Below, in pieces: positions 5,613 to 26,290 of a stretch of DNA of 38,173 bases. Numbering within the stretch: the first letter of the stretch is position 1; each line of letters begins with the position of its first letter. The notes below the pieces were generated by a model. The model saw only the letters and a list, made by a program, of their open reading frames with translations. It did no database searches and was not told the DNA's origin. Origin of the DNA: Candidatus Omnitrophota bacterium (lineage in GTDB: Bacteria > Ratteibacteria > UBA8468 > B48-G9 > JAFGKM01); NCBI GenBank assembly GCA_023818645.1, contig JAMWCJ010000009.1:1-38173 (forward strand), given 5' to 3'. The position numbers were made by a program, and so were the translations under genes.

Positions 5613-6682
5613 TTTGCTTTAAAAATAACTGGTTTTCCTGCTTCTACTTGATATACATCAACAAGATTTTTACTTATAACTTTTATTGCAGATTCTTCTG
5701 ACGATAAATAATAATAATTTTCATCTTCAGCAGCAACAAGTGGTCTTAATTTTATTCTATCATTCAAACCAATCATATATTCTGAATTTGAAACAATTAT
5801 TGCAAATGGACCATTGACAAGAGCAGGCCCATAAATAATCCTTAATGTTTTTAAAAAATTTTTGAAATTTTCATCTTTAATTCTTTCTATTTGAAACCAA
5901 AAAGGAGATGCAATAATATTCCCAATCGTTTCAAAGTCAAGTTTATGTTTTCTATAAAGTAAATCAAATAGATATGTAATAACTTCTGTATCTGTGTAGA
6001 GTGTACAATAATAACCAAAATTTTCAAGGTATCTTCTATTTATTCCATAACTTGAAATTTCACCATTATGAACAACTGACCAATCAATAATTCCAAAAGG
6101 ATGAGCACCACCCCACCATGCAACTGTATTTGTTGGGAATCTATTATGTGCAGTCCATAAGTATCCCTTATATTCATAAATTTTATAAAAATCAGCAATT
6201 TCATCAGGATTCCCCACTCCTTTAAATATTCCCATATTTTTTCCAGAAGAAAAAACAAAAACATTTTCTATATTTTTATTTATAAACATAACTTTCTCTA
6301 TTATAATGTCTTCTTCTGATAAACCATTCAATTTTTCTTCTTTTATTTTTAAAAAGTATCTCCAGAGATTTGGAATAGAATTTAATTTTTTATTTTTTTT
6401 AACTGAAATTGGTTCTGAATGGATTATTTCAAATGTTTCTTCTAAATAATTTTCAAGAATTTCAAAATCTTTTTCAGAATTATACATTATATGGAAACAC
6501 CATTTATCAGAAAAATCTGGATAAATTCCATATCCTGCAAATCCAGAACCAAGTCCATTTCCTCTTTCAATCATATTACAAATAGAAATTATAATTTTTT
6601 CACCCGAAAAAATTTGTCCATTTTTTGATATAATTCCAACAATACCACAACCAGAAGGTATGTGAAAATTCCTGTCATCCAT
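5600..6682 (-). CDS. Glutamate synthase N-terminal class II glutamine amidotransferase domain as a separate protein
   Basis: Short propeptide before Cys (HIPSG-CGIVGI), HNRFPTNTVAWWGGAHPFGIIDWSVVHNGEISS. Confidence 0.93.
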   Translation of the reverse strand: MDDRNFHIPSGCGIVGIISKNGQIFSGEKIIISICNMIERGNGLGSGFAGYGIYPDFSDKWCFHIMYNSEKDFEILENYLEETFEIIHSEPISVKKNKKLNSIPNLWRYFLKIKEEKLNGLSEEDIIIEKVMFINKNIENVFVFSSGKNMGIFKGVGNPDEIADFYKIYEYKGYLWTAHNRFPTNTVAWWGGAHPFGIIDWSVVHNGEISSYGINRRYLENFGYYCTLYTDTEVITYLFDLLYRKHKLDFETIGNIIASPFWFQIERIKDENFKNFLKTLRIIYGPALVNGPFAIIVSNSEYMIGLNDRIKLRPLVAAEDENYYYLSSEESAIKVISKNLVDVYQVEAGKPVIFKAKWQK

Positions 6683-6687
6683 TTTAT

Positions 6688-8019: not shown

Positions 8020-8686
8020 TTCTTCCCTCCTTTTTTAAATTTAGAAAATTCTTAATTATTTTTTCACCATATTTTTTTACCTCATTTATTTTTTCAGTAT
8101 TTTTTTGATTTGTCAAATCAAAAATTAATTTTTCATCAAATTCAATATGAAATTGAAAACCATATAAGTTTTTGCCAATTTTAAAACCTTGATGCTTCCC
8201 TTCCCTATCTTTTACAAGTAAGATTCCTTCCTTAGGAACTTCAAAACAATCATTGTGGTATTGATAACAAGGAAAGGTTTTAGGTATGCCTTTAAAAATC
8301 TTGTCTTTTTCACCTTTTTCTGTTAGTTCAACTTCAAAAAATCCAATTTCATTACATATATTTAAATTTACTTTTCCATTAAATGTTTTTGCAAGTATTT
8401 GTGCTCCTAAACATATACCAAGAAAAGGAATATCTATTTTATTAACTTTTTTTATAAATTTAACTTCTTCTTTTAAAAAAGGGTATTCTTTTTCTTGATA
8501 AACATTCATTGAACCACCAAGTAAAAAAATAAAATCTATATTTTCAATCTTTTCTGGTAGTTTTTCACCTTTTTCAAGTTCAATTATCTTATATAGGATA
8601 TTCATTTTTTTCAAAATATTTTCAATTATTCCAGGTCCTTCCCTAATTTCATGTTTAATTATTAAAGCATTTTTATATTGCTGCAT
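8012..8686 (-). CDS. Stand-alone class I glutamine amidotransferase (GMP-synthase GATase-like)
   Basis: Catalytic GICLGAQ cysteine motif and FQFHIEF His/Glu; overlaps glnA and glnK. Confidence 0.85.
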   Translation of the reverse strand: MQQYKNALIIKHEIREGPGIIENILKKMNILYKIIELEKGEKLPEKIENIDFIFLLGGSMNVYQEKEYPFLKEEVKFIKKVNKIDIPFLGICLGAQILAKTFNGKVNLNICNEIGFFEVELTEKGEKDKIFKGIPKTFPCYQYHNDCFEVPKEGILLVKDREGKHQGFKIGKNLYGFQFHIEFDEKLIFDLTNQKNTEKINEVKKYGEKIIKNFLNLKKEGRNE

Positions 8687-9011
8687 TTCCTTTTTCTCCT
8701 GTTCTTATTTTTATCACATTTTCAACTGGTAAAATAAAAATCTTGCCATCCCCAATTTCTCCAGTTCTTGCTGTATCAATTATGACTTTTACTATTTTTT
8801 CAACATCAATATCTTTTGCAATGATTTCTACTTTAATCTTCTCTATAAATTCAACTTTATATTTTTCTCCTCTCCAGTTGCGCACTATCCCTCCTTGTTT
8901 CCCACAACCTTCTACATCAGTGATAGTTAAACCATAATGACCAATTTTTTCAAGTTTTTCTTTTACTTTGAGTAAAAATTCAGGTCTTATTATTGCTTCA
9001 ATTTTTTTCAT
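8673..9011 (-). CDS. glnK: Nitrogen regulatory protein P-II (GlnB/GlnK)
   Basis: MKKIEAIIRPEFLLKVKEKLEKIG...VEGCGKQGG...IFILPVENVIKIRTGEKG. Start re-assigned to ATG at 9011; track start (9074) adds 21 aa inside the amtB end. Confidence 0.95.
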   Translation of the reverse strand: MKKIEAIIRPEFLLKVKEKLEKIGHYGLTITDVEGCGKQGGIVRNWRGEKYKVEFIEKIKVEIIAKDIDVEKIVKVIIDTARTGEIGDGKIFILPVENVIKIRTGEKGNAAI

Positions 9012-9024
9012 AATTTCCCCTTTT

Positions 9025-10323
9025 TCAAAAATATGTTTTTTTAATATAAAATTCAGGATAGGAAATATTCCCATGTTCTCCTATATCAAGACCTTCTATC
9101 TCTTCTTTTAAACTAACTCTTATACCAATTGTTTTTTTAATTAATATCCAGAAAATTAAAGATGTAATAAAAACAAAAATACCAACGCTAATAATCCCTA
9201 CTATTTGTGTCAATAAAAGTTTAATACCACCTTTGTAAAGAAGTCCATCACTACAAGTTATCCCACATATACCATTTTTTGCAAAAAGTCCAACAGATAG
9301 AGTACCAAAAATACCATTTACAAGATGGACTGATAGAGCACCAACAGGGTCATCAATTTTTATTTTATCAAAAAATATCACAGATAAAACAACCAAAATC
9401 CCAGCAATAAATCCTATAATCATAGAAGCAGCAACTGTTACAAATGCACATGGTGCAGTTATAGCAACTAATCCTGCAAGACAGCCATTTAGAGTCATAC
9501 CAAGGTCTGGTTTACCAAGTAAAATATATGAAATTATGGTAGAACTAATCATTGCAGTTGTAGCAGAAGTATTTGTTGTAACTACTATATGACTTATTGC
9601 AATAGGGTCTGCTGTCATAGTAGAACCGGGATTAAATCCAAACCAACCAAACCATAAAACAAATGTTCCAATAGTTGCAAGTGGTAAACTGTGTCCAGGG
9701 ATAATATTGGTTTTCCCATTTTCATATTTCCCAAAGCGCGGTCCTAATAATAAAACACCTGCAAGTGCAGCCCACCCACCAACTGAATGAACAACAGTTG
9801 AACCAGCAAAATCAAGCATTCCAAGTTTACTAAGCCAGCCACCTCCCCATACCCAGTGCCCAACTATAGGATATATAAACATACACATCAAAAAACTGAA
9901 GATAATAAAAGAGGTATACTTAATTCTTTCTGCAACAGCACCTGAAACAATTGTTGCTGCTGTTCCACAAAATGCAAGTTGAAAGAAAAATTTTGCATAT
10001 AAAGGAACTTTAACCCATGATAATGCAGAATAAACTCCTTTATAATTATCCCCTATTGAGGGAGAATTATCTGGTCCTTGTAAAAGAAATAATCCTTTAA
10101 AACCAATGAACCCATTTCCATCACCAAACATTAATCCCCATCCAACAAATAAAAAAGCAAGAGATGTAACTGCAAAAACAATAAAATTCTTTGATAGAAT
10201 ATTTGTTGTATTTTTTGTTCTTGTAAAACCACTCTCTACCATAGCAAAGCCAAGATTCATAAAAAATACAAGTTTTGCAGTTACTAAAACCCAAATAGTA
10301 TTCACAATTGTTGTAATATCCAT
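9025..10323 (-). CDS. amtB: Ammonium transporter
   Basis: NFMNLGFAMVESGFTR-type N-terminus, DFAGSTVVHSVGGWAAL, FGWFGFNPGST, twin-His region HLVNG. Confidence 0.97.
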   Translation of the reverse strand: MDITTIVNTIWVLVTAKLVFFMNLGFAMVESGFTRTKNTTNILSKNFIVFAVTSLAFLFVGWGLMFGDGNGFIGFKGLFLLQGPDNSPSIGDNYKGVYSALSWVKVPLYAKFFFQLAFCGTAATIVSGAVAERIKYTSFIIFSFLMCMFIYPIVGHWVWGGGWLSKLGMLDFAGSTVVHSVGGWAALAGVLLLGPRFGKYENGKTNIIPGHSLPLATIGTFVLWFGWFGFNPGSTMTADPIAISHIVVTTNTSATTAMISSTIISYILLGKPDLGMTLNGCLAGLVAITAPCAFVTVAASMIIGFIAGILVVLSVIFFDKIKIDDPVGALSVHLVNGIFGTLSVGLFAKNGICGITCSDGLLYKGGIKLLLTQIVGIISVGIFVFITSLIFWILIKKTIGIRVSLKEEIEGLDIGEHGNISYPEFYIKKTYF

Positions 10324-10335
10324 TTTTAACCACCT

Positions 10336-10375
10336 AAAAACAAAAAGGCGCTTTCCCCTCCTTGGGGAAAACGCC
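10336..10375 (-). terminator. Intrinsic terminator in the amtB leader
   Basis: Minus strand GGGCGTTTTCCCC-AAGGA-GGGGAAAGCGCC followed by TTTTTGTTTTT, ending about 13 nt before the amtB ATG, so amtB mRNA must read through it. Confidence 0.85.
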
Positions 10376-10409
10376 CTTGTTTTTTAAAATTTTAATCCTA
10401 CTTTGGATT
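10368..10409 (-). promoter_or_regulatory. ANTAR-type tandem hexaloop hairpins (P1/P2 antiterminator) upstream of amtB
   Basis: Minus strand P1 AATCC-AAAGTA-GGATT (10394-10409) and P2 AAAAC-AAGGGC-GTTTT (10368-10383); both loops have A1 and G4; P2 overlaps terminator 5' arm. Confidence 0.65.
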
Positions 10410-10462: not shown

Positions 10463-10948
10463 TTAAATTTCTATTTTTTTTAAGCCAGTCACCTTGCTTT
10501 TAATTTTTTTGATAATTTTAATTACCATAACATGAGAAATTCCTAAAGTTTGTCCAATTTCTCTTGTTGTATATCCTTCTATTATAAGATTTACAACTTT
10601 TTTTTCTCTCTCATTTAACAAATCATATATTTCTTCTAAATCTATTAAATATGAATTTTTTTTACTTACTTTTTCAAAACATATATTCTTTTCCATCAAT
10701 TCGTCCAAACTTATAAATTTTTGAGATTTATTTTTTCTCATAAAATTTTTAAAATAAAAATAACACCTTTTTAAAATATATCTCTCATTTTTCCCTTCAA
10801 GATTCCCATTGTTCCATTCAATCCATAAATATAAATAAATTTCTTGAAGCAAATCATCTTTTTCAAAGATATTATTTCTATTTTTAAATTTTCTCAATAT
10901 ATAGTCTAATTTACTATCCAATTTTTTAATAAGTTCTAAATATTCCAT
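10463..10948 (-). CDS. Sigma-70-family-like regulator (region 2-like plus region 4/LuxR-type HTH)
   Basis: DDLLQEIYLYLW region-2-like segment; LNEREKKVVNLIIEGYTTREIGQTLGISHVMVIKIIKKIKSKV HTH. Confidence 0.7.
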   Translation of the reverse strand: MEYLELIKKLDSKLDYILRKFKNRNNIFEKDDLLQEIYLYLWIEWNNGNLEGKNERYILKRCYFYFKNFMRKNKSQKFISLDELMEKNICFEKVSKKNSYLIDLEEIYDLLNEREKKVVNLIIEGYTTREIGQTLGISHVMVIKIIKKIKSKVTGLKKIEI

Positions 10949-12543
10949 TTTAAGTATTTATTTATAATTGGCATTCTTCTATCTTTACCAAATGCTTTTG
11001 GTGTTATTTTAATTCCTGGTGGCGATTGTCTTCTTTTGTATTCATTTCTGTCAACCATTTTTAAAACTTTCTTAATTAAATTTTCATCAAAGCCAATATT
11101 AACAATCTCTTCATAACTTTTATCATTCTCTATATATTCTTTTAAAATTGAATCAAGAACTTCATATGGTGGTAATGTATCAGTATCTTTTTGATTTTCT
11201 TTTAATTCTGCTGTTGGTTCTTTTATAAATATATTTTCAGGTATAACTGGAGATATTGAATTTCTCCACTTCGCTATCTTATATACCATTGTTTTATAAA
11301 GGTCTTTTATAACAGCAAATCCTCCCGCCATATCTCCATATAAAGTTGCATAACCAACGCTCATTTCTGATTTATTCCCAGTTGTCAGAACAAGATATCC
11401 AAATTTGTTTGATAAAGCCATTAAAATATTACCTCTTATTCTTGCCTGTATATTTTCTTCGGTAATATCAAATGGTCTATCTTGAAATATATCTTTTAAT
11501 GTTTCAAGATAAGAATTAAAAATTTTTTCAATGGATATGATTTTAAACTCTATTCCAAGATTTTTTGCAAGTTTTTTTGCATCTAAATAAGATTGAGGAG
11601 ATGAAAAGCGTGAAGGCATAAAAATACCGATAACATTTTCTTTCCCAAGTGCATCAACAGCAATTGTAGCAGTCAATGCAGAATCAATACCACCACTTAA
11701 TCCAATAACGACTTTTTTAAAATTATTTTTGTAAACATAGTCTCTCAATCCACATATAAGACCTTTGTATATCTCTTCACTTTCATTTACTTCTTCAATT
11801 TCAATTGGTTTATCTTCTGATGAAAATATCAAAATCTCTTCTTCAAAAGGTTTTCCTTTTTTTATAACTTGTCCCTTATTATTAACTGCTAAACTTTGAC
11901 CATCAAAAAGAAGTTCATCCTGCCCTCCAACAAGATTTGTATAAAACAAAAAAATATTATATTTTAAAGATATCTCTTTTATAATTCTTTCTCTTTCTTT
12001 TATTTTCTTATAGTGGTATGGAGAAGCATTTAAAACAAAAATATATATTGCACCATTTTTAATCTGTTTTTTATAAGGACCATGTTTGTGCCATATATCT
12101 TCACAAATTACGACACCAAATTTTATTCCATTAATTTCAAAAAATCCAATTTCTCTTCCTTTTGAAAAATATCTTTTTTCATCAAATACACCATAATTAG
12201 GAAGAATTTTTTTATTATAGATGCCTATTATTTCACCTTTATAAATAATCCCAGCAGAATTATAAACTTTATTATTTTTCTTGTTCACAAAACCAACAAT
12301 TACAATAGAATTTTTTACATTTTTTCTTATTTTTTGCAATGCATTTAAGTTATCTTCTATAAATTTCCTTCTTAGTAATAAATCCTCAGGTGGATATCCT
12401 GTGATAGATAGTTCTGGAAAACAAATAAAATTACATTCTTCTTTTTCTCCTTTTTCAATTGCTTTTATAATTTTTTCTGTATTTCCTAAAATATCACCAA
12501 CAGTAAAATTTAATTGACATAAAGCAACTTTAATATTTCCCAT
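10936..12543 (-). CDS. nadE: Glutamine-dependent NAD+ synthetase
   Basis: N-terminal nitrilase-type amidase (CFPELSITGYPPEDLL, VVICEDIWH) and C-terminal synthetase (VVIGLSGGIDSALTATIA, TTGNKSEMSVGYATLYGDMAGG). Confidence 0.97.
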   Translation of the reverse strand: MGNIKVALCQLNFTVGDILGNTEKIIKAIEKGEKEECNFICFPELSITGYPPEDLLLRRKFIEDNLNALQKIRKNVKNSIVIVGFVNKKNNKVYNSAGIIYKGEIIGIYNKKILPNYGVFDEKRYFSKGREIGFFEINGIKFGVVICEDIWHKHGPYKKQIKNGAIYIFVLNASPYHYKKIKERERIIKEISLKYNIFLFYTNLVGGQDELLFDGQSLAVNNKGQVIKKGKPFEEEILIFSSEDKPIEIEEVNESEEIYKGLICGLRDYVYKNNFKKVVIGLSGGIDSALTATIAVDALGKENVIGIFMPSRFSSPQSYLDAKKLAKNLGIEFKIISIEKIFNSYLETLKDIFQDRPFDITEENIQARIRGNILMALSNKFGYLVLTTGNKSEMSVGYATLYGDMAGGFAVIKDLYKTMVYKIAKWRNSISPVIPENIFIKEPTAELKENQKDTDTLPPYEVLDSILKEYIENDKSYEEIVNIGFDENLIKKVLKMVDRNEYKRRQSPPGIKITPKAFGKDRRMPIINKYLKWNI

Positions 12544-12569
12544 AATTCCTCCTTTTAATTATTGATTTT

Positions 12570-12605
12570 CCCTCATTGGGCAGGAACTTCTTTGTTCGGG
12601 TGAGG
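12570..12605 (-). promoter_or_regulatory. Structured nadE leader with one ANTAR-like hexaloop hairpin
   Basis: Minus strand CCTCACCC-GAAC-AAAGAA-GTTC-CTG-CCCAATGAGGG; hexaloop AAAGAA identical to the gltB-like leader P1 loop; alternative CCTCA/TGAGG pairing. Confidence 0.4.
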
Positions 12606-12642
12606 ACATTCTCTTTTTTCATTTTTACATATTTTAAATTCT

Positions 12643-12807
12643 TTGTCAAGTCAAATTCGCCATATAGTTCCTTTTAATTTTTAACTTTCTTTATCATTCC
12701 TAAATTTTCTTTAAAATTTATGGTGCTAAAGAGAAAAAGTAGAAATAAGGAATACCAATGGGAAAGAAGGATTTTTAAAAATTAAAGTGGCGAATTTGAT
12801 TTGACAA
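12643..12807. mobile_element. MITE-like element with about 20 bp terminal inverted repeats, no ORF
   Basis: ttgtcaagtcaaattcgcca (12643-12662) versus reverse complement of tggcgaatttgatttgacaa (12788-12807), 19/20; palindromic symmetry continues inward (cttttaatttttaa / ttttaaaaattaaag). Confidence 0.5.
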
Positions 12808-12830: not shown

Positions 12831-14351
12831 CTATTCCCATTCAATTGTTGCAGGTGGTTTTGAAGTTATATCATATACAACTCTATTAACCCCTTTAACT
12901 TTATTTATAATTCTATTTGATATTCTTTCAAGTATCTTATAAGGAATTTTTACCCAATCAGCAGTCATTCCATCTACACTTTTTACAACTCTAATAGCAA
13001 TAACATTTTCATAAGTTCTTTTGTCTCCCATAATTCCAACACTTTTTATAGGCAATAAAACTGCAAATGCCTGCCAGATTTTATTATAAAGACCTGCTTT
13101 TTTTATTTCCTGTTCAACTATAAAGTCGGCCTTTCTCAATATTTCAAGTTGTTCTTCTGTTATCTTACCTATAATTCTTACTGCAAGTCCAGGACCTGGG
13201 AATGGATGTCTTTTTATTATAAAATCTGGTAGATTTAATTCTTTTGCAATTTTTCTTATCTCATCTTTAAATAAAAATTTAAATGGTTCAATAAGTTTAA
13301 ATTTCATATTTTCAGGGAGTCCCCCAACATTATGATGTGTTTTTATCCTTACAGATGGTCCTTTGAATGGAGAAATACTTTCTATAAGGTCAGGGTATAG
13401 AGTTCCTTGTGCAAGATATTGAGCACCAAATCTTTCTCCTTCTTTCTCAAAAATTTCAATAAATGTATTACCTATAATCTTTCTTTTATCTTCAGGGTCT
13501 TCTATATTTTTTAATCTTTCAAGGAATATATTTGAAGCATCTATATATTTAAAATTGATTTTATTTTTGAAAAAATTTATTATTTCTTCTGGTTCATTTT
13601 CCCTTAAAAGTCCATTGTTTATAAATATACTTAAAGAATTTTCCCCACAAACTTCATTAAGAATTAAAGATAAAACAGAAGAATCAATCCCTCCACTTAA
13701 TGCACATATAATTTTTTTATTATTTACTTTTTCTTTTATCTCATTTTTAATTTTTTTTAGGATGGAGCCAAAAGACCAGTCAGATTTTAAATTACATATA
13801 TTGAAAAGAAAATTTTTCAAAATCTTTTTCCCTTCTTCTGTATGAATAACTTCTGGATGAAATTGAACTCCATAAATTTTTTTATTCTTATCTCTGAAAG
13901 CACCTATTTTTACATTCTCTGTTTTTCCTATTATTTTGAATTCTTTTGGTAATTTGCTTACATAGTCCCAATGGCTCATCCAAACAATTGTTTCTTTTTT
14001 TAAGGATTTAAAAATTTCTTCATTAGTATCTGGATAGAAAATTGTCTTTCCATATTCCCTTATCTTTCCATGAGAAACTTTTCCACCAAAATATTTCGCT
14101 ATAAGTTGCATTCCATAACAAATTCCTAAAATATAAAATTCTTTGCTTTTAAAAATTCTTTCATCAAAATCTAATTCTTTTTTAGATATATGTCCTGGAC
14201 CACCTGATAAAATTAAAACATTTACATTTTTATCTTTCAATTCTTCATATCTTGTTGTAAAATGAAAAATTTCACAATAAACCTTTAATTCTCTAACTCT
14301 TCTTGCTATAAGTTGTGTATATTGTGAACCAAAATCAATTATTGCAACCAT
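12831..14351 (-). CDS. guaA: GMP synthase (glutamine-hydrolysing)
   Basis: ILGICYGMQ, VQFHPEV, CALSGGIDSSV, C-terminal DITSKPPATIEWE. Confidence 0.98.
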   Translation of the reverse strand: MVAIIDFGSQYTQLIARRVRELKVYCEIFHFTTRYEELKDKNVNVLILSGGPGHISKKELDFDERIFKSKEFYILGICYGMQLIAKYFGGKVSHGKIREYGKTIFYPDTNEEIFKSLKKETIVWMSHWDYVSKLPKEFKIIGKTENVKIGAFRDKNKKIYGVQFHPEVIHTEEGKKILKNFLFNICNLKSDWSFGSILKKIKNEIKEKVNNKKIICALSGGIDSSVLSLILNEVCGENSLSIFINNGLLRENEPEEIINFFKNKINFKYIDASNIFLERLKNIEDPEDKRKIIGNTFIEIFEKEGERFGAQYLAQGTLYPDLIESISPFKGPSVRIKTHHNVGGLPENMKFKLIEPFKFLFKDEIRKIAKELNLPDFIIKRHPFPGPGLAVRIIGKITEEQLEILRKADFIVEQEIKKAGLYNKIWQAFAVLLPIKSVGIMGDKRTYENVIAIRVVKSVDGMTADWVKIPYKILERISNRIINKVKGVNRVVYDITSKPPATIEWE

Positions 14352-15915
14352 CTATATCACTTTTTTTAAATTTATAATATTCTTTAATATCCATCACTTT
14401 AAGTCCAATCTCTTTAAGTTTTTTAATTGCATAAATTGTTGCTTTAGCACCTGGTATTGTTGTTACTAAAGGAATATTTCTTTGAACAGCAATTGTCCTT
14501 ATTGAAACTATATCTTTTTTAGGTTTCTTACCAGATGGAGTATTTATTATAAGCGATATCTCATTATTTATTATATAATCAAGTATATTTGGTCTTCCTT
14601 CATAAATTTTTGGTATAATTTTAACCTTTATTCCTGACTCATATAAGATTTTTCCAGTTCCTCCACTTGCTAATATTTTAAATCCAAGGTTTTCTAATTC
14701 TTTTGCTATTGAAATTATGTAAGGTTTATCTTTATCTTTTACACTTATAAAAACATTTCCTGATGTTGGCAAATTTTGTCCTGCTGCTAATTGACTTTTT
14801 GCATAAGCAATTTCAAAACTTTCATCAATACCCATTACCTCCCCTGTTGATTTCATTTCAGGACCTAAAATTGCGTCAACATTTCCAAATCTATTAAATG
14901 GGAAAACAGATTCTTTTACTGCATAATAATTTAAATTTACTTCTTTTGTAAAATTTAATTCTTTTAATCTCTTTCCTATCATTATCTTTGTTGCAAGTTT
15001 TGCAAGTGGAACACCTATTGCTTTACTAACAAATGGAATTGTTCTTGATGCTCTTGGATTTACTTCAAGGACATATACTTTACCATTTTTTACTGCATAT
15101 TGAATATTTATAAGACCAATTATATTTAATGATAGAGCAAGTTTTTTAGTTATTTCTTTTATTTCCTCTATTATATTTTTTTTTAAACTATAAGGTGGTA
15201 TAACCATTGCACTATCTCCTGAATGAATACCTGCTTCTTCTATATGCTCCATTATCCCACCAATAACACATAAATTACCATCACATATTGCATCAACATC
15301 AACTTCAATTGCATCTTCAAGAAATTTATCTATTAAAATAGGATGTTCTGGTGAAACTTCTACTGCTTTTTCAATAAACTCTTTTAGTGCTTCTTCATCA
15401 TAAACAATTTCCATAGCCCTTCCACCAAGAACATAAGATGGTCTTACTAAAACTGGATAACCAAGTTTCCTGGCTATTTTTTTCGCTTCATCATATGTAA
15501 AAGCAGTTCCACTTGGTGGTTGTGTAATCTTTAATCTTTCTATTAATTTACTAAATTTTTCTCTATTTTCTGCTATATCAATTGCAATAGGGTCTGTTCC
15601 TAAAATTTTAACACCTGCATTTTTTAAAGGTATAGCAAGTTTTAAAGGTGTCTGTCCTCCAAATTGTAGAATAACACCAATTGGGTCTTCCTTCTCAATA
15701 ATATTTAATACATCTTCAAAAGTAAGTGGTTCAAAATATAATCTTGTGGAAGTATCATAGTCAGTGCTAACTGTTTCTGGATTACAATTTATCATTATAC
15801 TTTCATACCCTTCCTCCTTTAATGCAAATGATGCATGAACACAACAATAATCAAATTCTATACCTTGACCTATTCTATTTGGACCTCCACCAAGTATAAC
15901 AACTCTTTTTTTCAT
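14335..15915 (-). CDS. carB: Carbamoyl-phosphate synthase large subunit, C-terminal half (split CarB)
   Basis: VVILGGGPNRIGQGIEFDYCCVHA start, ATP-grasp, C-terminal MGS-like domain. Confidence 0.95.
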   Translation of the reverse strand: MKKRVVILGGGPNRIGQGIEFDYCCVHASFALKEEGYESIMINCNPETVSTDYDTSTRLYFEPLTFEDVLNIIEKEDPIGVILQFGGQTPLKLAIPLKNAGVKILGTDPIAIDIAENREKFSKLIERLKITQPPSGTAFTYDEAKKIARKLGYPVLVRPSYVLGGRAMEIVYDEEALKEFIEKAVEVSPEHPILIDKFLEDAIEVDVDAICDGNLCVIGGIMEHIEEAGIHSGDSAMVIPPYSLKKNIIEEIKEITKKLALSLNIIGLINIQYAVKNGKVYVLEVNPRASRTIPFVSKAIGVPLAKLATKIMIGKRLKELNFTKEVNLNYYAVKESVFPFNRFGNVDAILGPEMKSTGEVMGIDESFEIAYAKSQLAAGQNLPTSGNVFISVKDKDKPYIISIAKELENLGFKILASGGTGKILYESGIKVKIIPKIYEGRPNILDYIINNEISLIINTPSGKKPKKDIVSIRTIAVQRNIPLVTTIPGAKATIYAIKKLKEIGLKVMDIKEYYKFKKSDIDGCNN

Positions 15916-15917
15916 TT

Positions 15918-17567
15918 TTACTCTAATTTTATAAACTCGGGATTTTCATAAGTTGAATAATAATATGGAGTATAAGCAATAAATTCTCCTGCACAAGTAT
16001 CTACACATTTATAATTAACTTCAATTTTATATTCCTTTCTTAAATTTCTTATTTCAATTTCACTTTTTCCAACCAATTTCCCTATTTGTTTATCTGAAAA
16101 TCCAAGTTCTTTTGCTTTTTTCATTGTTTGGCAATCAATTTTTCTATCTTTAAATTTTTTAATTTCTTTTTCAAAATCAACAATCTCTTTTATATTTGAA
16201 AGAAACCATTTATCTATTTTGCATAAATTATAAATTTCATCTATTGTTCTCCCTTCATTAAGTGCTTTTTTAATATAAAAAATTCTTAATGGATTTGGAA
16301 TTCTTAAGCCATCTTCTATTTCCATTTTTAAGTTTATATCTTCAAGACCATAAAAATTTTCTTCTAAACTTCTTAATGCTTTTTGTAATGCTTCTTTAAA
16401 AGTTCTACCAATTGCCATAACTTCACCAACTGATTTCATAGATGTTGAAAGATATGATAAAGAACCTGGAAATTTTTCAAAATTAAATTTTGGTATTTTT
16501 ACTACACAATAATCTATTGTTGGTTCAAAACAGGCAGGTGTTTTTTTAGTAATATCATTTGGTATTTCATCAAGAGTATAGCCAATTGCAAGTTTAGTTG
16601 CTATTTTTGCTATTGGAAAACCAGTTGCCTTAGATGCAAGAGCAGAACTTCTTGAAACTCTTGGATTCATTTCAATTACAACCATTTCTCCATTATCAGG
16701 ATTTACTGCAAATTGAATATTACTACCACCTGTTTCTACTCCAATCTCTCTTATTATTTTTATTGCTGCGTCTCTCATATTCTGATATTCTTTATCTGTT
16801 AATGTTTGGACAGGAGCAACTGTTATACTGTCACCTGTATGAATTCCCATAGGGTCAAAATTTTCAATTGAACATATTATTACTACATTATCTTTTAAAT
16901 CCCTCATTACTTCAAGTTCATATTCCTTCCATCCATAAACTGATTCTTCAATTAAAATTTCATTTATTAAACTTGCATTTAATCCAATTTCCGCAAGTTC
17001 TTTAAACTCTTGGATATTATAAGCAATAGAACTTCCTGTCCCGCCAAGCGTATATGCAGGTCTTATAATTACAGGAAATCCAATCTTTTTTGATACCTCA
17101 ATTGCTTCTTTTAAATTATGTGCTATCCCACTTTCAGGAACTTTAAGACCTATATTTTTCATTGATTCTTTAAATAACTCTCTATCTTCTGCTTTTTTAA
17201 TTGCATAATAATTTGCTCCTATTAATTCAACATTATATTTCTGTAAAACACCCATTTGATAAAGTCTTGTTGCTATATTTAAGGCTGTTTGACCACCAAG
17301 TGTTGGTAAAATTGCATCTGGTTTTTCTTTTTCAACTATTTTTGCAACTATTTCAGGTATTAATGGTTCAATGTAAATTTTATCTGCCATATCAGGGTCT
17401 GTCATAATTGTTGCAGGATTACTATTTACTAAAATCACTTGATATCCTTCTTCTTTCAATGCTTTACATGCTTGAGAACCAGAATAATCAAATTCACATG
17501 CCTGACCTATTATTATTGGTCCTGAACCAATTATCATTATTCTTTTTATATCAGTTCTTTTTGGCAT
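15918..17567 (-). CDS. carB: Carbamoyl-phosphate synthase large subunit, N-terminal half (split CarB)
   Basis: [42 protein letters not shown]; ends at [20 protein letters not shown], the inter-half linker. Confidence 0.95.
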
Positions 17568-18636
17568 TTTCTATATATTTGTAAAATTTTTCAAATAAAT
17601 ATTCAGCATCTTTTGGACCAGGTGCATTTTCAGGATGGAATTGAACACTAAAAATAGGTAATTTTTTATGCTCTATACCTTCAAGTGTACTATCATTTAA
17701 ATTTATGTGAGTTATTTCTATATTTTGGTCTTTAATTGAGTTTATATCAACACAAAATCCATGATTTTGAACTGTTATATAAACTTTCTCTGTTTTTAAA
17801 TCCTTTACAGGATGATTTGCACCATGATGACCAAATTTTAATTTATATGTTTTCCCACCAAAAACTTGTCCTAAAATTTGATGGCCAAGACATATTCCAA
17901 AAATTGGATATCTTTCTACAAGATTTAAAAGATTTTTTACAATATAATTTAATGGTTCTGGGTCTCCTGGTCCATTTGAAATTAATATCCCATCTGGTTT
18001 TTCTTTTATAATCTCTTCATAAGGTGATGTTGCTGGATATACTATTACTTTTAAATCATATTTGGAAAGCAATCTCAAAATATTATATTTAACTCCACAA
18101 TCAATAACAACAACTTTATATTTTCCTTCTTTCTTCCACCAGTATGGTTTTTCTTTTATAACATCTTTAACAAGGTCTACACCAACAATAGAACGGGATT
18201 TTCTAACTTTTTCAAGCATTTCTTTTAACTCATTTTCTCCTGTAAAAATACCTCCTTTTTGTGCTCCTTTGTCTCTTAAAATCTCTGTTATCTTTCTTGT
18301 ATCAACATCTTCAATTCCAACAATTCCATTTTCTTCAAATAACTCCTCAATTGATTTTTCCCCTCTCCAATTTGAATAAATTTTACTTTTCTCTTTAACT
18401 ACAAAACCTTCAAGATGAATCTTATATGACTCTATATCACTACTATTTACACCATAGTTTCCAATTAAAGGATAAGTCATAACAACTATTTGGCCTTTAT
18501 AAGATGGGTCATATATAATTTCCTGATAACCTGTCATACTTGTGTTAAAAATAAGTTCACCAAATCTTTCTCCTTTTGCTCCAAAAATTTTTCCTTTATA
18601 AATTGTTCCATCCTCTATAACAAGATATCCTTTCAT
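17551..18636 (-). CDS. carA: Carbamoyl-phosphate synthase small subunit
   Basis: [63 protein letters not shown]. Confidence 0.98.
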
Positions 18637-20015
18637 TTTTCAAATTGTTCTTTACCTTTAAAATCGCTAATTTCAACAGGATATTGGCCAGTAAAACATG
18701 CAGTACAAAATTCATCATCTGGTAAATCCATAGAAGAAAGCATTCCTTTAAGTGAAAGATAATGTAAACCATCAAGTCCAATAATCTTTTTAATTTCTTT
18801 TATAGTTTTACCTGATGCAATCAATTCATTTTTTGTTGGAAAATCAATTCCATAAAAACATGGATATTTTATAGGAGGAGAACTTACTACCATATAAACA
18901 TTTCTTGCACCTGCTTTTCTCAATTCATTAATTCTTAAAGTACTTGTTGTCCCTCTGACTATTGAGTCCTCAACTACAATTATACATTTATCTTTTATAA
19001 CCTCTTTTACTGGATTTAATTTTACCTTTACTCCAATTTCTCTTGAAGTTTGAAATGGCATAATAAATGTTCTTCCAACATAATGATTTCTTATAAAACC
19101 CATTTCAAAAGGAATTTTTAATTTTTCTGCAAGCCCAATTGCTGCAATATTACCTGAATCTGGGATTGGAATTACTAAATCTGCTTTAAATTGTAATTCT
19201 CTTGCTAAATTTTCTCCAAGTTTTTTCCTTGCTTTATACACACTTTCCCCAAAAATTTTACTATCAGGTCTTGCAAAATATATAAATTCAAAAATACATC
19301 TTGAAATTTTATTTTTTTGTAAATAATAACTTTTAAGTCCATTTTCTCCAATATGTAAAATTTCTCCTTCTTCAATTTCTCTTATATAATTTGCTCCAAT
19401 AAGGTCAAATGCACAATTCTCAGAAGCGACAACATAACCATTTTCAAATTTTCCTAAACATAAAGGTCTAAATCCATTTGGGTCTTTAATAGCATATATT
19501 CCATCAGGAGAAAAAATTAAAAGAGAATAAGCACCTTTAACTTTTTTCAATGCTTCAATAAGTTTGTCAATGAAACTTTCTTTTTTTGATCTGAAAATAA
19601 GATGTATTATTATTTCTGTATCAAGAGTTGTCTGAAATAAAGTTCCTTGACTTTCAAGTTCTTCTCTTAATGTATAACTATTTACAAGTGTTCCATTATG
19701 AGCAATTCCATATTTTTCACCTTTATATTCTACAATGAATGGTTGTATATTTTTGATATCAGGACTTCCAGTTGTTGAATATCTTACATGTCCAATTCCA
19801 AAACCAAAATTTTTATATTTCTCAAAATCAAATTTTGAAAAAACATCATTTACAAGTCCCATTCCTTTATAAATATATGTATTTTTAAAATCAGAAAAAA
19901 TTATTCCACAACTCTCTTGACCTCTATGCTGGAGCGAAAAAAGAGAAAAATATAAAATTTTGGGAACATCTTTAACATTATAAATACCTACAATTCCACA
20001 ATTTTCTCTAATCAT
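18633..20015 (-). CDS. purF: Amidophosphoribosyltransferase, Fe-S/propeptide type
   Basis: MIREN-CGIVGI propeptide start at 20015, LQHRGQESCGI, VEDSIVRGTTS PRPP motif, C-terminal CTACFTGQYPVE. Track start 20069 is a TTG that fits better as a -35 element. Confidence 0.96.
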   Translation of the reverse strand: MIRENCGIVGIYNVKDVPKILYFSLFSLQHRGQESCGIIFSDFKNTYIYKGMGLVNDVFSKFDFEKYKNFGFGIGHVRYSTTGSPDIKNIQPFIVEYKGEKYGIAHNGTLVNSYTLREELESQGTLFQTTLDTEIIIHLIFRSKKESFIDKLIEALKKVKGAYSLLIFSPDGIYAIKDPNGFRPLCLGKFENGYVVASENCAFDLIGANYIREIEEGEILHIGENGLKSYYLQKNKISRCIFEFIYFARPDSKIFGESVYKARKKLGENLARELQFKADLVIPIPDSGNIAAIGLAEKLKIPFEMGFIRNHYVGRTFIMPFQTSREIGVKVKLNPVKEVIKDKCIIVVEDSIVRGTTSTLRINELRKAGARNVYMVVSSPPIKYPCFYGIDFPTKNELIASGKTIKEIKKIIGLDGLHYLSLKGMLSSMDLPDDEFCTACFTGQYPVEISDFKGKEQFEK

Positions 20016-20131
20016 TTTTAGATGGAGAATAATTTTTATAAATTTTACAATATTTTTATTTTTTTTCAAACTATTAAAATAATTAATGGAGAATTTTTAT
20101 CCCTTCACTTTTTAAGTTCAACAATTAAATA

Positions 20132-21703
20132 TTAATCTAAAATTTCTTTAACCCTTTCTTTATCTGAATCCATCACAAAAGGTATTCCTGAAACTTCTGA
20201 TGCTTCTTTTGTTAAAGCAAATATGTCATCCCTTGAGATATATTTTAATGCAAACTTTCTTGCTCCTGCCATAAGTTGTTTTAAACCAGTTGAAAGGCGG
20301 TCATAATAAGTATAAATTCCAATTGCCCCAATAGGTATTTTTTTAAATCTCTCTCTACCATATTTCTTTAATATTTCTTCACCTTTTAGAAAAATTTGTT
20401 CAATTTTATTTCCATGCTCTTTATAATCCTTTGGAATATTTCCCTTTTTAATCATCTCTCCTATTGTTTTTGCAACCATACCCGCTGTCATTGTTGCCCT
20501 TCCAAGACATACAGCCTTTGTAAATGGTGATGATAAAGCAAAAACTTTAAAAATCTGGTCTTCAAATGCAAGTCCACCTGCAAAAGCAATTGGTGGGATA
20601 TATTTGCCTTTTTCTTTTAATATTTGACAGTATTTATAAGTTAATGAAATCAACTCAACAAGTGGAATTCCCCATTCATTCATCATTCTCCAAGGGCTCA
20701 TTCCAGTTCCTCCACCAGCAGCATCAATTGTCAAAAGGTCAATTTTTGCTTCAGAAGAAAGTTTTAATGCAATAGCAAGGTCTTTTGGTCTATAAGCACC
20801 TGTTTTTAATGTTATATATTTTGCTCCAATTTTTCTCAATCTTTCAACCTCCTTTAAAAATCCATCTTGTGTAACCATACCGAGACGAGAGTGTCTTTCA
20901 AATTCAGTTATTGCTTTAATTTTATATGCTTCTTTTACAACAGGGTCATCTGGGTCTGGCAGAACTATATATCCTCTTTCTTTAAGTTGTTTTGCTCTTT
21001 CAATTGAGGAAAGTTTAACTTCTCCACCAATATCTTTTGCTCCTTGCCCCCATTTTAACTCTATAGCATTTACTCCTAATTTTTCAATAACATATTCAGC
21101 AACTCCAAGTCGTGTATCTTCAACATTTAATTGGACAAGGATATTACCATATCCTTCATACCATTCTTTATAAATTTTAACTCTATGTTCCATATCTGGA
21201 GATTTATAAACTTTTCCATTTTTCAATTCAAGTTTTGGGTCCATTCCACATACATTCTCTCCAATTATAACAATAGTTCCTGAAATAGCAGCTCCTACAG
21301 CAAAATGGTCCCAATTATTTCTTGCAATATCAGTAGACCCAAGTGCTCCTGTAAAAAATGGAACTCTCAGTTTTATATCATTATTGCTTCCCAAATCAGT
21401 TTGAATATCTACATTTGGGAAAATCGCTTTATCTGGATCTGCTTCAATTCCATACGCACCAATACATGTTCCATGAATATTAAAATGAGATAAATCTATT
21501 GGATAATTTTTTTCTCCACCTGCAGTAATCTTTCCAAAAGGTTGAGGATAAATTAATTCTCTACCTCTTATTGCTGATTTTCCAATTTCACAAAATCCTG
21601 GACAGCCGTCAATACAAGTAACACAAATTCCAGAAATAGGAGATGGCTCAATCCTATTTCTTGTGAAATTAACTCCACTTGCATTATATCTACTATACCC
21701 CAT
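20132..21703 (-). CDS. Orphan glutamate-synthase-like FMN-binding domain protein
   Basis: GltB-like barrel motifs (PFFTGALGSTDIARNNWDHFAVGAAISG, IELKWGQGAKDIGGEV, AAGGGTGMSPWRMMNEWG); no GATase or GXGXG domain. Confidence 0.85.
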   Translation of the reverse strand: MGYSRYNASGVNFTRNRIEPSPISGICVTCIDGCPGFCEIGKSAIRGRELIYPQPFGKITAGGEKNYPIDLSHFNIHGTCIGAYGIEADPDKAIFPNVDIQTDLGSNNDIKLRVPFFTGALGSTDIARNNWDHFAVGAAISGTIVIIGENVCGMDPKLELKNGKVYKSPDMEHRVKIYKEWYEGYGNILVQLNVEDTRLGVAEYVIEKLGVNAIELKWGQGAKDIGGEVKLSSIERAKQLKERGYIVLPDPDDPVVKEAYKIKAITEFERHSRLGMVTQDGFLKEVERLRKIGAKYITLKTGAYRPKDLAIALKLSSEAKIDLLTIDAAGGGTGMSPWRMMNEWGIPLVELISLTYKYCQILKEKGKYIPPIAFAGGLAFEDQIFKVFALSSPFTKAVCLGRATMTAGMVAKTIGEMIKKGNIPKDYKEHGNKIEQIFLKGEEILKKYGRERFKKIPIGAIGIYTYYDRLSTGLKQLMAGARKFALKYISRDDIFALTKEASEVSGIPFVMDSDKERVKEILD

Positions 21704-21721
21704 TTTATCCTCCTTTTGTTT

Positions 21722-21762
21722 AAAATAAAAAAGGTCCTTTCTCTTCTCTGAGAGAAAGGACC
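21722..21762 (-). terminator. Intrinsic terminator in the leader of the gltB-like gene
   Basis: Minus strand GGTCCTTTCTC-TCAGAGAA-GAGAAAGGACC plus TTTTTTATTTT, followed by AAAGGAGG SD and ATG at 21703. Confidence 0.9.
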
Positions 21763-21788
21763 CCTTTGTCCTCTTTACTTCTTTGTAA
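21757..21788 (-). promoter_or_regulatory. ANTAR-type tandem hexaloop hairpins (P1/P2 antiterminator) upstream of the gltB-like gene
   Basis: Minus strand P1 TTAC-AAAGAA-GTAA (21775-21788), linker aga, P2 AGGAC-AAAGGG-GTCCT (21757-21772); loops carry A1 and G4; P2 3' side overlaps the terminator 5' arm. Confidence 0.72.
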
Positions 21789-21802
21789 TTCTTTTATATT
21801 TT

Positions 21803-21831
21803 TATAATAACATATTTAAAAAATCTGTCAA
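21803..21831 (-). promoter_or_regulatory. Predicted sigma-A-type promoter of the gltB-like gene
   Basis: Minus strand TTGACA (21826-21831), 17 nt spacer, ATTATA (21803-21808). Confidence 0.6.
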
Positions 21832-21910: not shown

Positions 21911-22792
21911 TTATATCAGATTTGAAAGAGAAAGTAATTCAGGGACATATTTATCCCAGCCAAGCGGCATAATATGTACACCCTGACACATACCCTTCAT
22001 TCCTTTAATTAATTCTGCTCCTATCTGTAAACTAACTTTCACTCTATCCTCTTTTTTTGCTTTTGCCATCATTTCAATATATCTATCTGGAACACTTACT
22101 CCTGCTACATTTTCATTCATATATTTTGCCATACCAGCAGATTTTAAAAGAACAATACCACCAAGAATTGGAACTTTATATTTTTCAACTTTCTTCATAA
22201 ACTCTTCAAACTTTTTTAAATCATAAACTGCTTGTGTCTGGAAAAATTTTGCTCCTGCCTCAATTTTTTTCTCCATTTTAATAATTTGAAGTTCTAATGG
22301 TTCATATCCAGGACTTACAACTGCTCCTAAAAAAAAGTGTGGGCTACCATCAAGTTGGTTCCCTTTCATATCCTTCCCTTCCATTAACATTGATGCAACT
22401 TTTAATAAAGAAACAGAATCAAGGTCAAAAACTGGTTTAGATTCAGGATGGTCTCCTAAAATTGGATGGTCTCCAGTTAAACATAAAACATTTCTAATCC
22501 CTAAAACATATGCACTTAAAAGGTCTGATTGTAAAGCAAGACGATTTCTATCTCTACAAGTAATTTGGAAAATAGGTTCAAATCCTCTTTCTATAAGTAG
22601 ATGACAGGTGGCAAGAGAACCAAGACGCATAACTGAACTCTGTAAATCAGTAACATTAATTGCATCAACCTTATCCTTTAACTCATCTGCTTCTTTCAAA
22701 AACTCAAGATTTGTTCCTTTGCCAGGACCTATTTCTGAAGTTATAACAAATTTACCCTCATTCAATTTTTTCTGTAATTTTGATATTTCCAT
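21911..22792 (-). CDS. metF: 5,10-methylenetetrahydrofolate reductase
   Basis: FVITSEIGPGKG, ITCRDRNRLALQSDLL, LTGDHP, GAKFFQTQAVYD motifs. Confidence 0.95.
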   Translation of the reverse strand: MEISKLQKKLNEGKFVITSEIGPGKGTNLEFLKEADELKDKVDAINVTDLQSSVMRLGSLATCHLLIERGFEPIFQITCRDRNRLALQSDLLSAYVLGIRNVLCLTGDHPILGDHPESKPVFDLDSVSLLKVASMLMEGKDMKGNQLDGSPHFFLGAVVSPGYEPLELQIIKMEKKIEAGAKFFQTQAVYDLKKFEEFMKKVEKYKVPILGGIVLLKSAGMAKYMNENVAGVSVPDRYIEMMAKAKKEDRVKVSLQIGAELIKGMKGMCQGVHIMPLGWDKYVPELLSLSNLI

Positions 22793-22793
22793 T

Positions 22794-23474
22794 TTATAAC
22801 TCCTCGTTTTTATCTACATCATAAAATATTTTTTTTCTAATCTTTCCTGTTGGCTCACATAGTTTGTAATTCCTTGGTTCCTGATATTCTTTTAAAATTT
22901 CAAGTTTCTCAATTCTTTTAAGTTTTTCATATATTAATGCCCATCCACAATCCTTTTCAGAATCTATTTCGCATTTTCCATTATTGGTTCCACCACATGG
23001 CCCATTAATCAATTGTTTTGTACAGAAAGTAATAGGACATATTCCTCCTGTAATTCCAAGATAACACATTCCACATTCAGCACATCTTTCTTCTCCAGGC
23101 CAGAGACCTTGAAATCCACCCAGATATATTGTATTTGTTGCAGGATAAATTGGTTTTTCAATAACATTTGAAACACATTGCACACCTATACCACATGAAA
23201 AAACTAAAATGCCAAAGTTATCTGAAAAATCATTTATGAACCTTGATAATTTTCTTACAATTAAATTCTTATTACACATAAAATCTATTTTTATAATTCT
23301 TTTTATTTTCTTTCCATTTGTTTTCAATTTCTCTTCAATTTCACTTATACTTTTATCATCGCTTACTTTACATACTTCTGCACATCCATTACAAGCAAGT
23401 AAAAGTAAATTTTCTTCTTTTGTAATTTTTAAAATTTCTTCAAAAATTTTCAGTTCTGAGTAAATCATTTTCAT
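22794..23474 (-). CDS. metV: MetV-like protein (methylenetetrahydrofolate reductase C-terminal Zn/Fe-S domain family)
   Basis: CNGCAEVC, CGIGVQCVSNVI, CAECGMCYLGITGGICPITFCTKQLINGPCGGTNNGKCE; overlapping neighbour of metF. Confidence 0.88.
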   Translation of the reverse strand: MKMIYSELKIFEEILKITKEENLLLLACNGCAEVCKVSDDKSISEIEEKLKTNGKKIKRIIKIDFMCNKNLIVRKLSRFINDFSDNFGILVFSCGIGVQCVSNVIEKPIYPATNTIYLGGFQGLWPGEERCAECGMCYLGITGGICPITFCTKQLINGPCGGTNNGKCEIDSEKDCGWALIYEKLKRIEKLEILKEYQEPRNYKLCEPTGKIRKKIFYDVDKNEEL

Positions 23475-23937
23475 TCTCCTTTTTTAAGATTAAACTACAA
23501 AATTTAATAAGTTTATCCAAAATTTCTTCAAATTTTTCAAGCAATACTTCAGAAAGCCCAATCTTCCAATCAATTTTTGCTGGTTCAATCCCAAAAATAT
23601 AAAAATTCTTCAAAAAATCAAAACAACTTAGAATTTCAGTATCTAAATAGTTTTTTTCATGGGTCGAAAATGTCCAATTATCTAAAATAATAGGATTTTT
23701 ACTTATATATACAAGACCAGGTATTAAATTGAAATCTATAGTATCAACTATAACTAAATTTTCACATCTTTCTTCTTCAACTATAGGTAAAATTCTCCAT
23801 GTCTCTGTTCCTATCTCATAAATTTTTACCTCTTTTTCATCAAAATAATTTTTAAGTTCTCTTACGAGATAAACCCCAATTCCATCATCCATTCTTAAAG
23901 TATTTCCTATCCCAATAACCAGCAATTTTATGCCCAT
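23440..23937 (-). CDS. [NiFe]-hydrogenase maturation endopeptidase (HyaD/HybD family)
   Basis: VIGIGNTLRMDDGIGVYLV, VDTIDF, STHEKN. Confidence 0.88.
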   Translation of the reverse strand: MGIKLLVIGIGNTLRMDDGIGVYLVRELKNYFDEKEVKIYEIGTETWRILPIVEEERCENLVIVDTIDFNLIPGLVYISKNPIILDNWTFSTHEKNYLDTEILSCFDFLKNFYIFGIEPAKIDWKIGLSEVLLEKFEEILDKLIKFCSLILKKENENDLLRTENF

Positions 23938-25463
23938 ATTAAAAATTCTTTTTTGTTTAATTTTTTCCTTTCTATAATCTGAACAGCACAGGCAAGACAG
24001 GGGTCAAAAGACCTTACTATTCTTAAAATTTCTATCGGGTTTTCTTCATCTTTAATAGTTGTTCCTATAAGTGCTTTTTCAATTGGTCCATAATTTTCAT
24101 TTTTATCTTTTGGAGAAGCATTCCAGGTAGTAGGTGAGATAATCTGATAATGTGAGATTTTTTTATTTTTTATCTCTATCCAATGACCTACAGCACCACG
24201 AGCACCTTCGCTTAACCCAACTCCTTTACATTCAGAAGGTATTTCATAATCTACAAAAAATTCTTCATCTTCTTTTATTTTCAATATCCAGTTTAAACTT
24301 TCTTCTATTAAAACTTTTGCTTCTATAAATCTTGCAATATGTCTTCCAAGGACAGAATTTAATTTCTTTATATCTATTTTAAGATCAGTAATTATTTTAT
24401 CTATTTGACTCTTCCATGATTCTACTCCCATTTTATAAGCAACAAACAATCTTGCCACCGGACCAACTTCAAAAGGTTTTCCTTTATATCTTGGACTTTT
24501 TATCCATGAATATGCATTTTTATTTATATCTACCTTTGGAAAATCCTTTCCTGGATTTTCTATTTCACCTTCATACCATGAGTTTTCTATATGTTCTGTT
24601 ATTTCACTTAAATTAAATTCTTCAAAACTTTCCATATTAAAAACAACTCCACCAGGTTGAAATTTTTCAATAATACCATCTTTTTTTAAATAGAATGTCC
24701 CATATGCAAGATAATTTCCATAAGAAGCGCCTATATCAAAATAATCATTATAGTAATTAATTATATCTTTTAGGTCCCTGAAATAGTAGAGTTCAACGAA
24801 TTCTTTTATATCTTTTAGTTTACCTATCGCATTCTCTATTTTTCCGATATCAACTTTTTGGGTAACACCTCCAGGGATAATGCCGCATTGATGTGGCATT
24901 TTACCTCCAAAGATACTTAAAAGTTGATGGCTATATCTTCTTATTTCAAGTCCCTTTATATAATTATGAAGGCATCTTAAATTTACATCTTCAGGCAATC
25001 TTAAGTCATTATTTTTTGAAGAAAAAGGGTAATAATTATCTCTTTCAAAAAACTTACAAACAAGGTCAATTTCACTACTCACACCTCTTTTTACCTTAGT
25101 TAAATCTATAAAATCAAGTAAACAAAGATGATAAAAATGTAAAATAGAATTGTGAATGTGATTTGAGGCATGTATTAAATTCCTTACTAAATAAGCATTT
25201 TGTGGGATTTTCTCCTTAATCCCTAAAGCATCTTCAACAGCATAAGTTGACGCAGTTGCGTGAGCAATTGGACATACTCCACATACTCTCTGTGTTATCT
25301 GAACTGCATCGGTTGGATCTCTGTCAATAAGGATATTCTCAATTCCTCTATAAAGCATCCCACTACATTTTGCATCAACTACTTTTTTATCTTCAATTTC
25401 AACTTCTATTTTTAGATGTCCTTCAATTCTTGTAACCGGGTCAATTATAATTTTTTTTCTCAT
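23928..25463 (-). CDS. [NiFe]-hydrogenase large subunit
   Basis: DPVTRIEGHLKIEV, RVCGVCPIAHATAS (L1) and DPCLACAVQ (L2). Confidence 0.95.
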   Translation of the reverse strand: MRKKIIIDPVTRIEGHLKIEVEIEDKKVVDAKCSGMLYRGIENILIDRDPTDAVQITQRVCGVCPIAHATASTYAVEDALGIKEKIPQNAYLVRNLIHASNHIHNSILHFYHLCLLDFIDLTKVKRGVSSEIDLVCKFFERDNYYPFSSKNNDLRLPEDVNLRCLHNYIKGLEIRRYSHQLLSIFGGKMPHQCGIIPGGVTQKVDIGKIENAIGKLKDIKEFVELYYFRDLKDIINYYNDYFDIGASYGNYLAYGTFYLKKDGIIEKFQPGGVVFNMESFEEFNLSEITEHIENSWYEGEIENPGKDFPKVDINKNAYSWIKSPRYKGKPFEVGPVARLFVAYKMGVESWKSQIDKIITDLKIDIKKLNSVLGRHIARFIEAKVLIEESLNWILKIKEDEEFFVDYEIPSECKGVGLSEGARGAVGHWIEIKNKKISHYQIISPTTWNASPKDKNENYGPIEKALIGTTIKDEENPIEILRIVRSFDPCLACAVQIIERKKLNKKEFLIWA

Positions 25464-26290
25464 TTTTGCTCTCCAATTTTTTCAATTTCTTTTCTTTTAA
25501 ATAATGGACTATTTTTATCTATAAATTCTGGTTCTGTACAACCAAAGCAGGGGGAATTATTTTTTATACACCAGTTCGTTCCTCCGTTCCATTCTCTTAT
25601 AGGACAATCAGCATATGTAAAAGGGCCCTTGCAACCAACTAAATATAAACAACCTTCTTCAGAAAAACTCTTTGCAAATGCCCCTTTGTCAAAATAAGGT
25701 CTTCTTGGACAATTTTCATGGATCAATCTGGAATAAAAATCTAAAGGTCTATTTAATTCGTCAAGTTTTATTTCTGCTCCAATTATAATCTTTGTAATAG
25801 TCCCCAAAAACCAATCTGGATGAGGAGGACATCCTGGAATATTTATGAGTAATTTTTCAATTTTTCTTTCTTCCATAATTTCTTTTACTGGTTTACAACC
25901 AGTAGGATTTGGTAAACTTGCAGGAATTCCTCCAAAACAAGAACAACTTCCAATACATATAATTCCTTTACAATTTTCCATCAAATCATATAAAATCTCT
26001 AAAAATGTTTTTTCTCCTATCTTGCCATAAATTCCACCGTCTTTAGTTGGAATAACACCTTCAACAACAAGAAAAAAATCTTTTTTGAGGTTCTCTTCCT
26101 TCAAAACTTCTATTACTTTTTCTCCACTTTCTGCCATTATTGTTGACTGGAAAACTAAAGAAACTGCTTTTCCTGGAACAATTTCATCAAGAAGTAAATT
26201 TTTTATTTTAAGAGAAGAAGAATTTAAAACAGAAATAGTACATCCTGTGCAAGTGCCAGATTGAAACCACACCACTTTTATATTTTCCAT
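25460..26290 (-). CDS. [NiFe]-hydrogenase small subunit, no apparent Tat signal
   Basis: SGTCTGCTIS, GSCSCFGGIP, GCPPHPDW, HENCPRRPYFDKGAF, CLYLVGCKGPFTYADCP, PCFGCTEPEF. Confidence 0.94.
   Translation of the reverse strand: MENIKVVWFQSGTCTGCTISVLNSSSLKIKNLLLDEIVPGKAVSLVFQSTIMAESGEKVIEVLKEENLKKDFFLVVEGVIPTKDGGIYGKIGEKTFLEILYDLMENCKGIICIGSCSCFGGIPASLPNPTGCKPVKEIMEERKIEKLLINIPGCPPHPDWFLGTITKIIIGAEIKLDELNRPLDFYSRLIHENCPRRPYFDKGAFAKSFSEEGCLYLVGCKGPFTYADCPIREWNGGTNWCIKNNSPCFGCTEPEFIDKNSPLFKRKEIEKIGEQK

Follow-up and report, generated by a model that had tools for sequence, protein, structure and literature searches.

The window analysed here, a stretch of 38,173 nt (contig JAMWCJ010000009.1) from the genome of a Candidatus Omnitrophota bacterium, encodes a glutamate-synthase-like protein of 523 aa (gltB-like, 20132-21703), which matches Pfam PF01645 over residues 279-405 (45.4 bits). 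Coordinates refer to the minus strand of the window unless another contig is named. A PDB search with this protein returned weak matches to designed TIM barrels only. The gene is followed by purF (18633-20069; TIGR01134, 497 bits) and by carA, carB and guaA (12831-18636), which overlap or nearly do so. The order gltB-like-purF-carA-carB-guaA, with small gaps or overlaps, is identical in the congener G001, and the spacing points to one apparent transcript. The gltB-like gene, taken for an orphan in the initial annotation, appears to lead an operon for enzymes that use glutamine. The carB gene is split into two ORFs (14335-17567), as it is in G001 and in G024. Farther upstream (21911-26290) lie genes for NiFe hydrogenase subunits, a hydrogenase maturation protease, and MTHFR with its DUF5981 partner.

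The region in front of the gltB-like gene (leader 1, 21703-21831) is compactly organized. It begins with a sigma-70-type promoter (21804-21831), in which TTGACA (21831-21826) and TATTAT (21809-21804) are separated by a spacer of 16 nt. With 11 of 12 matches, its score is the joint best across 14 kb. The initial annotation had recognized the TTGACA element and placed the second one a base off, as N17-ATTATA. Two hairpins follow, both carrying a hexanucleotide loop (in brackets) whose first base is A and whose fourth is G (A1/G4). The first, P1, reads TTAC[AAAGAA]GTAA (21788-21775), exactly as annotated, with a stem of 4 bp. The second, P2, is the putative antiterminator (21755-21774); its annotated core, AGGAC[AAAGGG]GTCCT, is present, and the stem extends further to 7 bp, AGAGGAC[AAAGGG]GTCCTTT. 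The linker between P1 and P2, annotated as 3 nt, is 0-3 nt depending on the stem pairs that are counted. An intrinsic terminator with its U tract spans 21727-21762; the arms GGTCCTTTCTCT and AGAGAAAGGACC (21762-21733) pair over 12 bp and are followed by TTTTTT (21732-21727). As had been claimed, the 3' strand of P2 doubles as part of the terminator's 5' arm, so that the two structures are mutually exclusive. The annotated SD (21714-21708) and ATG (21703-21701) are likewise in place.

The structure favoured by RNAfold for leader 1 consists of P1 and the terminator, and this fold is better than that of all 200 dinucleotide shuffles (z -3.9). P1 is weak by itself (-0.8 kcal/mol). P2 alone is worth -7.1 kcal/mol and the terminator -21.7 kcal/mol, and with about -7 against about -22 kcal/mol the terminator should win unaided. 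The apex of the terminator (21755-21741) can also be read as an A1/G4 hexaloop, TCTC[AGAGAA]GAGA, with the counterpart TCCC[AAAGTG]GGGG in G001 (L003, about 1445-1460); such a loop is not a rule in the other phyla examined.

About 100 loci with orthologs of the gltB-like gene were fetched. A covariance model, R1, whose seeds include both leader 1 and a second leader of the window (leader 2, described below), detected a leader no more than 600 nt ahead of the gltB-like gene in 28 of them, nine of which were not seeds. Since most orthologous loci are without such a leader, the link is common and not universal. All 44 R1 matches with E<=0.013 outside the window are on the strand of the gltB-like gene. 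Leaders with two hexaloops were found on this gene in loci labelled Omnitrophica, Aerophobetes, Caldatribacterium and several Desulfobacterota-type bacteria, and the arrangement recurs in G001 behind a different upstream gene. The leaders of the orthologous genes retain both hexaloops together with the terminator, rather than the terminator alone, and a TTGACA promoter lies upstream of most of them. By eye, the terminator reuses the 3' strand of P2 in 29 of 31 leader units. In Desulfacinum infernum, a cultured bacterium (L044), the leader is seen, and the fetched stretch contains no ANTAR gene. In other phyla (L035, L036, L040, L043, L046) two tandem ANTAR leader units often precede the gltB-like gene, mostly with one terminator each.

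The alignment of ortholog leaders that the initial annotation had proposed as a check revealed compensatory changes in the stems of both P1 and P2. L103 and L111, which were misplaced in the alignment A2, are left out of A3, the alignment that replaced it. Seven of the ten stem pairs changed on both sides, and two-sided changes amount to 45 against 15 expected from shuffles. The covariation score is 0.44 versus 0.16 in shuffles, and far lower for structures that were slid along the alignment; comparable covariation remains when all sequences of the window's own phylum are left out. In the 25-row alignment, loop position 4 is invariably G, while at position 1 the 50 loops have A in 39 cases and G in 11. 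The loop conservation in the model is partly by construction, since many of the seeds had been selected by eye for [AG]..G loops. An invariant G4 with a variable position 1 fits the structure of the EutV-RNA complex, where base-specific contact is made to G4 alone (PMC8934654).

The chance occurrence of such leaders was evaluated by scanning mechanically for pairs of A1/G4 hexaloop hairpins that overlap a terminator, with 200 shuffled windows as control. Two units were found in the window, both directly upstream of start codons, compared with a mean of 0.17 in the shuffled windows, seven of which contained at least two. As the more stringent and decisive test, a hold-out covariance model, R2, was built from 16 leaders of orthologous genes from other phyla only. 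Throughout the whole 1.97-Mb genome its sole match at E<=1 is 21756-21790 (E 3.6e-5), whereas R1 matches only leaders 1 and 2 below E 3; E-values of both models are rough. At P1 of leader 1 the scores are 40.4 bits with R1 and 31.4 bits with R2. Model matches in G004, G012 and G015 (E about 1e-3 to 1e-2) were treated as chance and not counted, because they lie within or behind coding sequence with no suitable gene downstream; G004 and G012 are without ANTAR genes. No relevant Rfam family was found with either gathering or permissive thresholds, and a single tRNA was all that reached the gathering threshold in the window.

Leader 2 (10342-10409; R1 E 1.1e-4) displays the anatomy of leader 1, with P1 AATCC[AAAGTA]GGATT, P2 AAAAC[AAGGGC]GTTTT and a terminator formed by GGCGTTTTCCCC and GGGGAAAGCGCC followed by T5. 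Behind it are arrayed amt, glnB (P-II), a class-I GATase gene, glnA, a class-II GATase gene and gltS for an Fe-S glutamate synthase subunit (4095-10323), which, judging from their spacing, probably form one operon. In G001 the P2 hairpin and the terminator are retained, and P1 has GATCC/GGGTC in place of AATCC/GGATT with the pairing kept. Leader 2 is not recovered by R2 at E<=1, so its support comes from R1, position and conservation in the congener. Between leader 2 and nadE lies a gene for a 161-aa protein (10463-10948), conserved in G001, with weak matches to sigma-70 region-4-like helix-turn-helix domains.

An ANTAR-domain protein is present in the genome, and exactly one: a GAF-ANTAR protein of 246 aa. 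Its gene (L001, 1468-2208, minus strand) is on a contig other than the window's, where it overlaps the gene upstream of it and is not preceded by a leader. Ten of the eleven RNA contacts of EutV are identical in this protein (R142, K143, K147, K149, E160, Y164, R168, M172, N173 and R175), and only R177 is replaced, by Ser; the contact list is from PMC8934654, whose numbering was taken as chain position minus 2. In twelve loci of relatives (L004, L005, L006, L016, L032, L033, L035, L040, L058, L074, L103, L111) a GAF-ANTAR gene precedes the gltB-like gene in the same orientation, at a distance of about 20-530 nt. A single run in G024, carB1-carB2-GAF-ANTAR-leader-gltB-like-glnA-GATase-gltS, unites the GAF-ANTAR gene with parts of both operons of the window. 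G061 has the leader in front of the ANTAR gene, which suggests autoregulation there. Directly downstream of the GAF-ANTAR gene in the window's genome is a gene for a PurF-like protein (L186, 4008-5318, minus strand) without a clear phosphoribosyltransferase match. The idea that this neighbour is a glutamine-sensing partner was dropped, as the two genes are not adjacent in G001.

The hold-out model, the covariation of the stems and the single ANTAR protein of the genome all favour the ANTAR-type interpretation first given to leader 1. The carAB genes downstream might instead point to a pyrimidine-type attenuator of the PyrR or pyrG kind, and the leader does match the Rfam families PyrG_leader (28.4 bits) and PyrR (27.7 bits) weakly. 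These scores are far under the curated ones (65 and 54), the elements conserved among orthologs are the two hexaloop hairpins, and the same anatomy is found on the amt-glnB-glnA operon, which leaves this explanation very improbable. It is just as hard to sustain that the hairpin is no more than the terminator of the metF operon upstream, standing beside chance hairpins without any regulation. Although metF, encoded on this strand too, has its end at 21911 and the hairpin makes a good terminator, a promoter sits between the two. The arrangement is found again behind another upstream gene in G001, and it recurs in other phyla, where the stems have changed in a compensatory way. Less probable still is a glutamine or glutamate sensor of the metabolite-riboswitch or T-box kind, which would suit the glutamine-related targets and the terminator: no Rfam riboswitch or T-box matches, just two small hairpins spanning about 35 nt stand upstream of the terminator, and GAF-ANTAR genes adjoin the leader in many relatives.

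On these grounds 21703-21831 is very probably an ANTAR-type transcription-attenuation leader of the glutamate-synthase-like gene. RNA polymerase would start just upstream of P1. With the regulator inactive, the terminator would form, capture the 3' strand of P2 and stop transcription before the gltB-like gene. The active GAF-ANTAR protein would bind the A1/G4 hexaloops of both hairpins on the nascent RNA, its dimeric ANTAR domain taking P1 and then P2, and by holding P2 would block the terminator and let transcription proceed into gltB-like-purF-carA-carB-guaA. The GAF domain is proposed to sense a signal of nitrogen state, with the switch ON under nitrogen or glutamine shortage. The binding by the GAF-ANTAR protein, the signal to its GAF domain and the direction of antitermination are predicted by analogy with the EutV, NasR and AmiR systems. 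Leader 2 is most likely controlled by the same protein. When the terminator is prevented, nitrogen assimilation and glutamine-using enzymes would thus be expressed together, and a well-defined RNA switch with a single regulator would be tied to the core of glutamine metabolism in an uncultured lineage.

A possible third leader (12541-12649) precedes nadE, which encodes a glutamine-dependent NAD synthetase (10936-12543; Pfam PF00795 and PF02540). It comprises a promoter-like site (12649-12621) and a hairpin region (12613-12541) with GAG[AATGTC]CTC, GAAC[AAAGAA]GTTC, a third small hairpin and the SD, and it has no terminator. By eye, the nadE leaders of only three congeneric species contain two A1/G4 hexaloop hairpins and a third small one near the SD, with neither a U tract nor a terminator; the hexaloops are retained in G001 and G005, and by eye they are absent from the nadE leaders of three order-level relatives. 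R1 scores nadE leaders weakly, with 17.1 and 12.9 bits in two of these species and no match in the window copy, which folds no better than its shuffles. Complementarity to the SD is found in the 3' strand of both hairpins, in P1 as CTC plus the preceding TC and in P2 as GTTCCT. The free RNA is predicted to keep the SD mostly paired, at a mean unpaired probability of 0.22, 0.26 and 0.29 in three congeners, and this becomes 0.80, 0.59 and 0.44 with P1 and P2 enforced, where some rise is expected anyway because enforcing pairs removes competitors.

These 3' strands may therefore mask the SD unless the GAF-ANTAR protein holds them in the hexaloop hairpins. Since the hairpins compete with the masking of the ribosome-binding site, ANTAR binding should activate. 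On the basis of these predicted folds we raise, tentatively and as the less probable outcome, that the nadE leader (12613-12541) is an ANTAR-controlled translational ON switch, so that one regulator would act by antitermination on two operons and by anti-sequestration on a third. It could be a candidate new form of ANTAR control. The translational ANTAR RNAs of actinobacteria (PMC8164766) resemble it in lying near the ribosome-binding site and in not relying on a terminator. In those RNAs, however, the ribosome-binding site is often inside an ANTAR hairpin and binding represses, whereas activation is predicted for nadE. If this is true, ANTAR proteins could also activate translation by exposing the ribosome-binding site, a way of acting that we did not find in the literature searched.

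The initial annotation knew of no such control on a glutamate-synthase-like gene, yet it had been reported already. According to the main text of Ramesh et al. 2012 (PMC3369931), ANTAR RNAs were predicted on glutamate synthase genes of Desulfotomaculum reducens; the listed targets include P-II, the ammonium transporter and glutamate/glutamine synthesis genes, and its Figure 9 presents a nitrogen regulon of 13 sites in D. acetoxidans. With this precedent, leader 1 is a further example of a known RNA type, of which some details are new. For the candidate phyla met here, we found no report on the ANTAR motif in the literature, of which coverage was partial. In comparison with the main text on D. 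reducens and D. acetoxidans, the motif is common to both on glutamate synthase, P-II, ammonium transporter and glutamine synthesis genes, while the present case belongs to another lineage, its operon adds purF, carAB and guaA, and a single GAF-ANTAR protein serves as the putative regulator.

The EutV leaders of the Enterococcus faecalis eut genes (Walshe et al. 2022, PMC8934654; main text of PMC3369931) share with those described here the pair of A1/G4 hexaloops, the short linker and a P2 3' strand that also belongs to the terminator. EutV, however, is a phosphorylated response regulator, in contrast to the GAF-ANTAR protein here; the targets here are glutamate/glutamine assimilation and glutamine-using enzymes, and some relatives have G at loop position 1. 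NasR-nasF and AmiR-amiE likewise have an ANTAR protein, hexaloop hairpins, attenuation and the nitrogen theme in common with the present system, but their sensor domains and target genes are unlike those found here.
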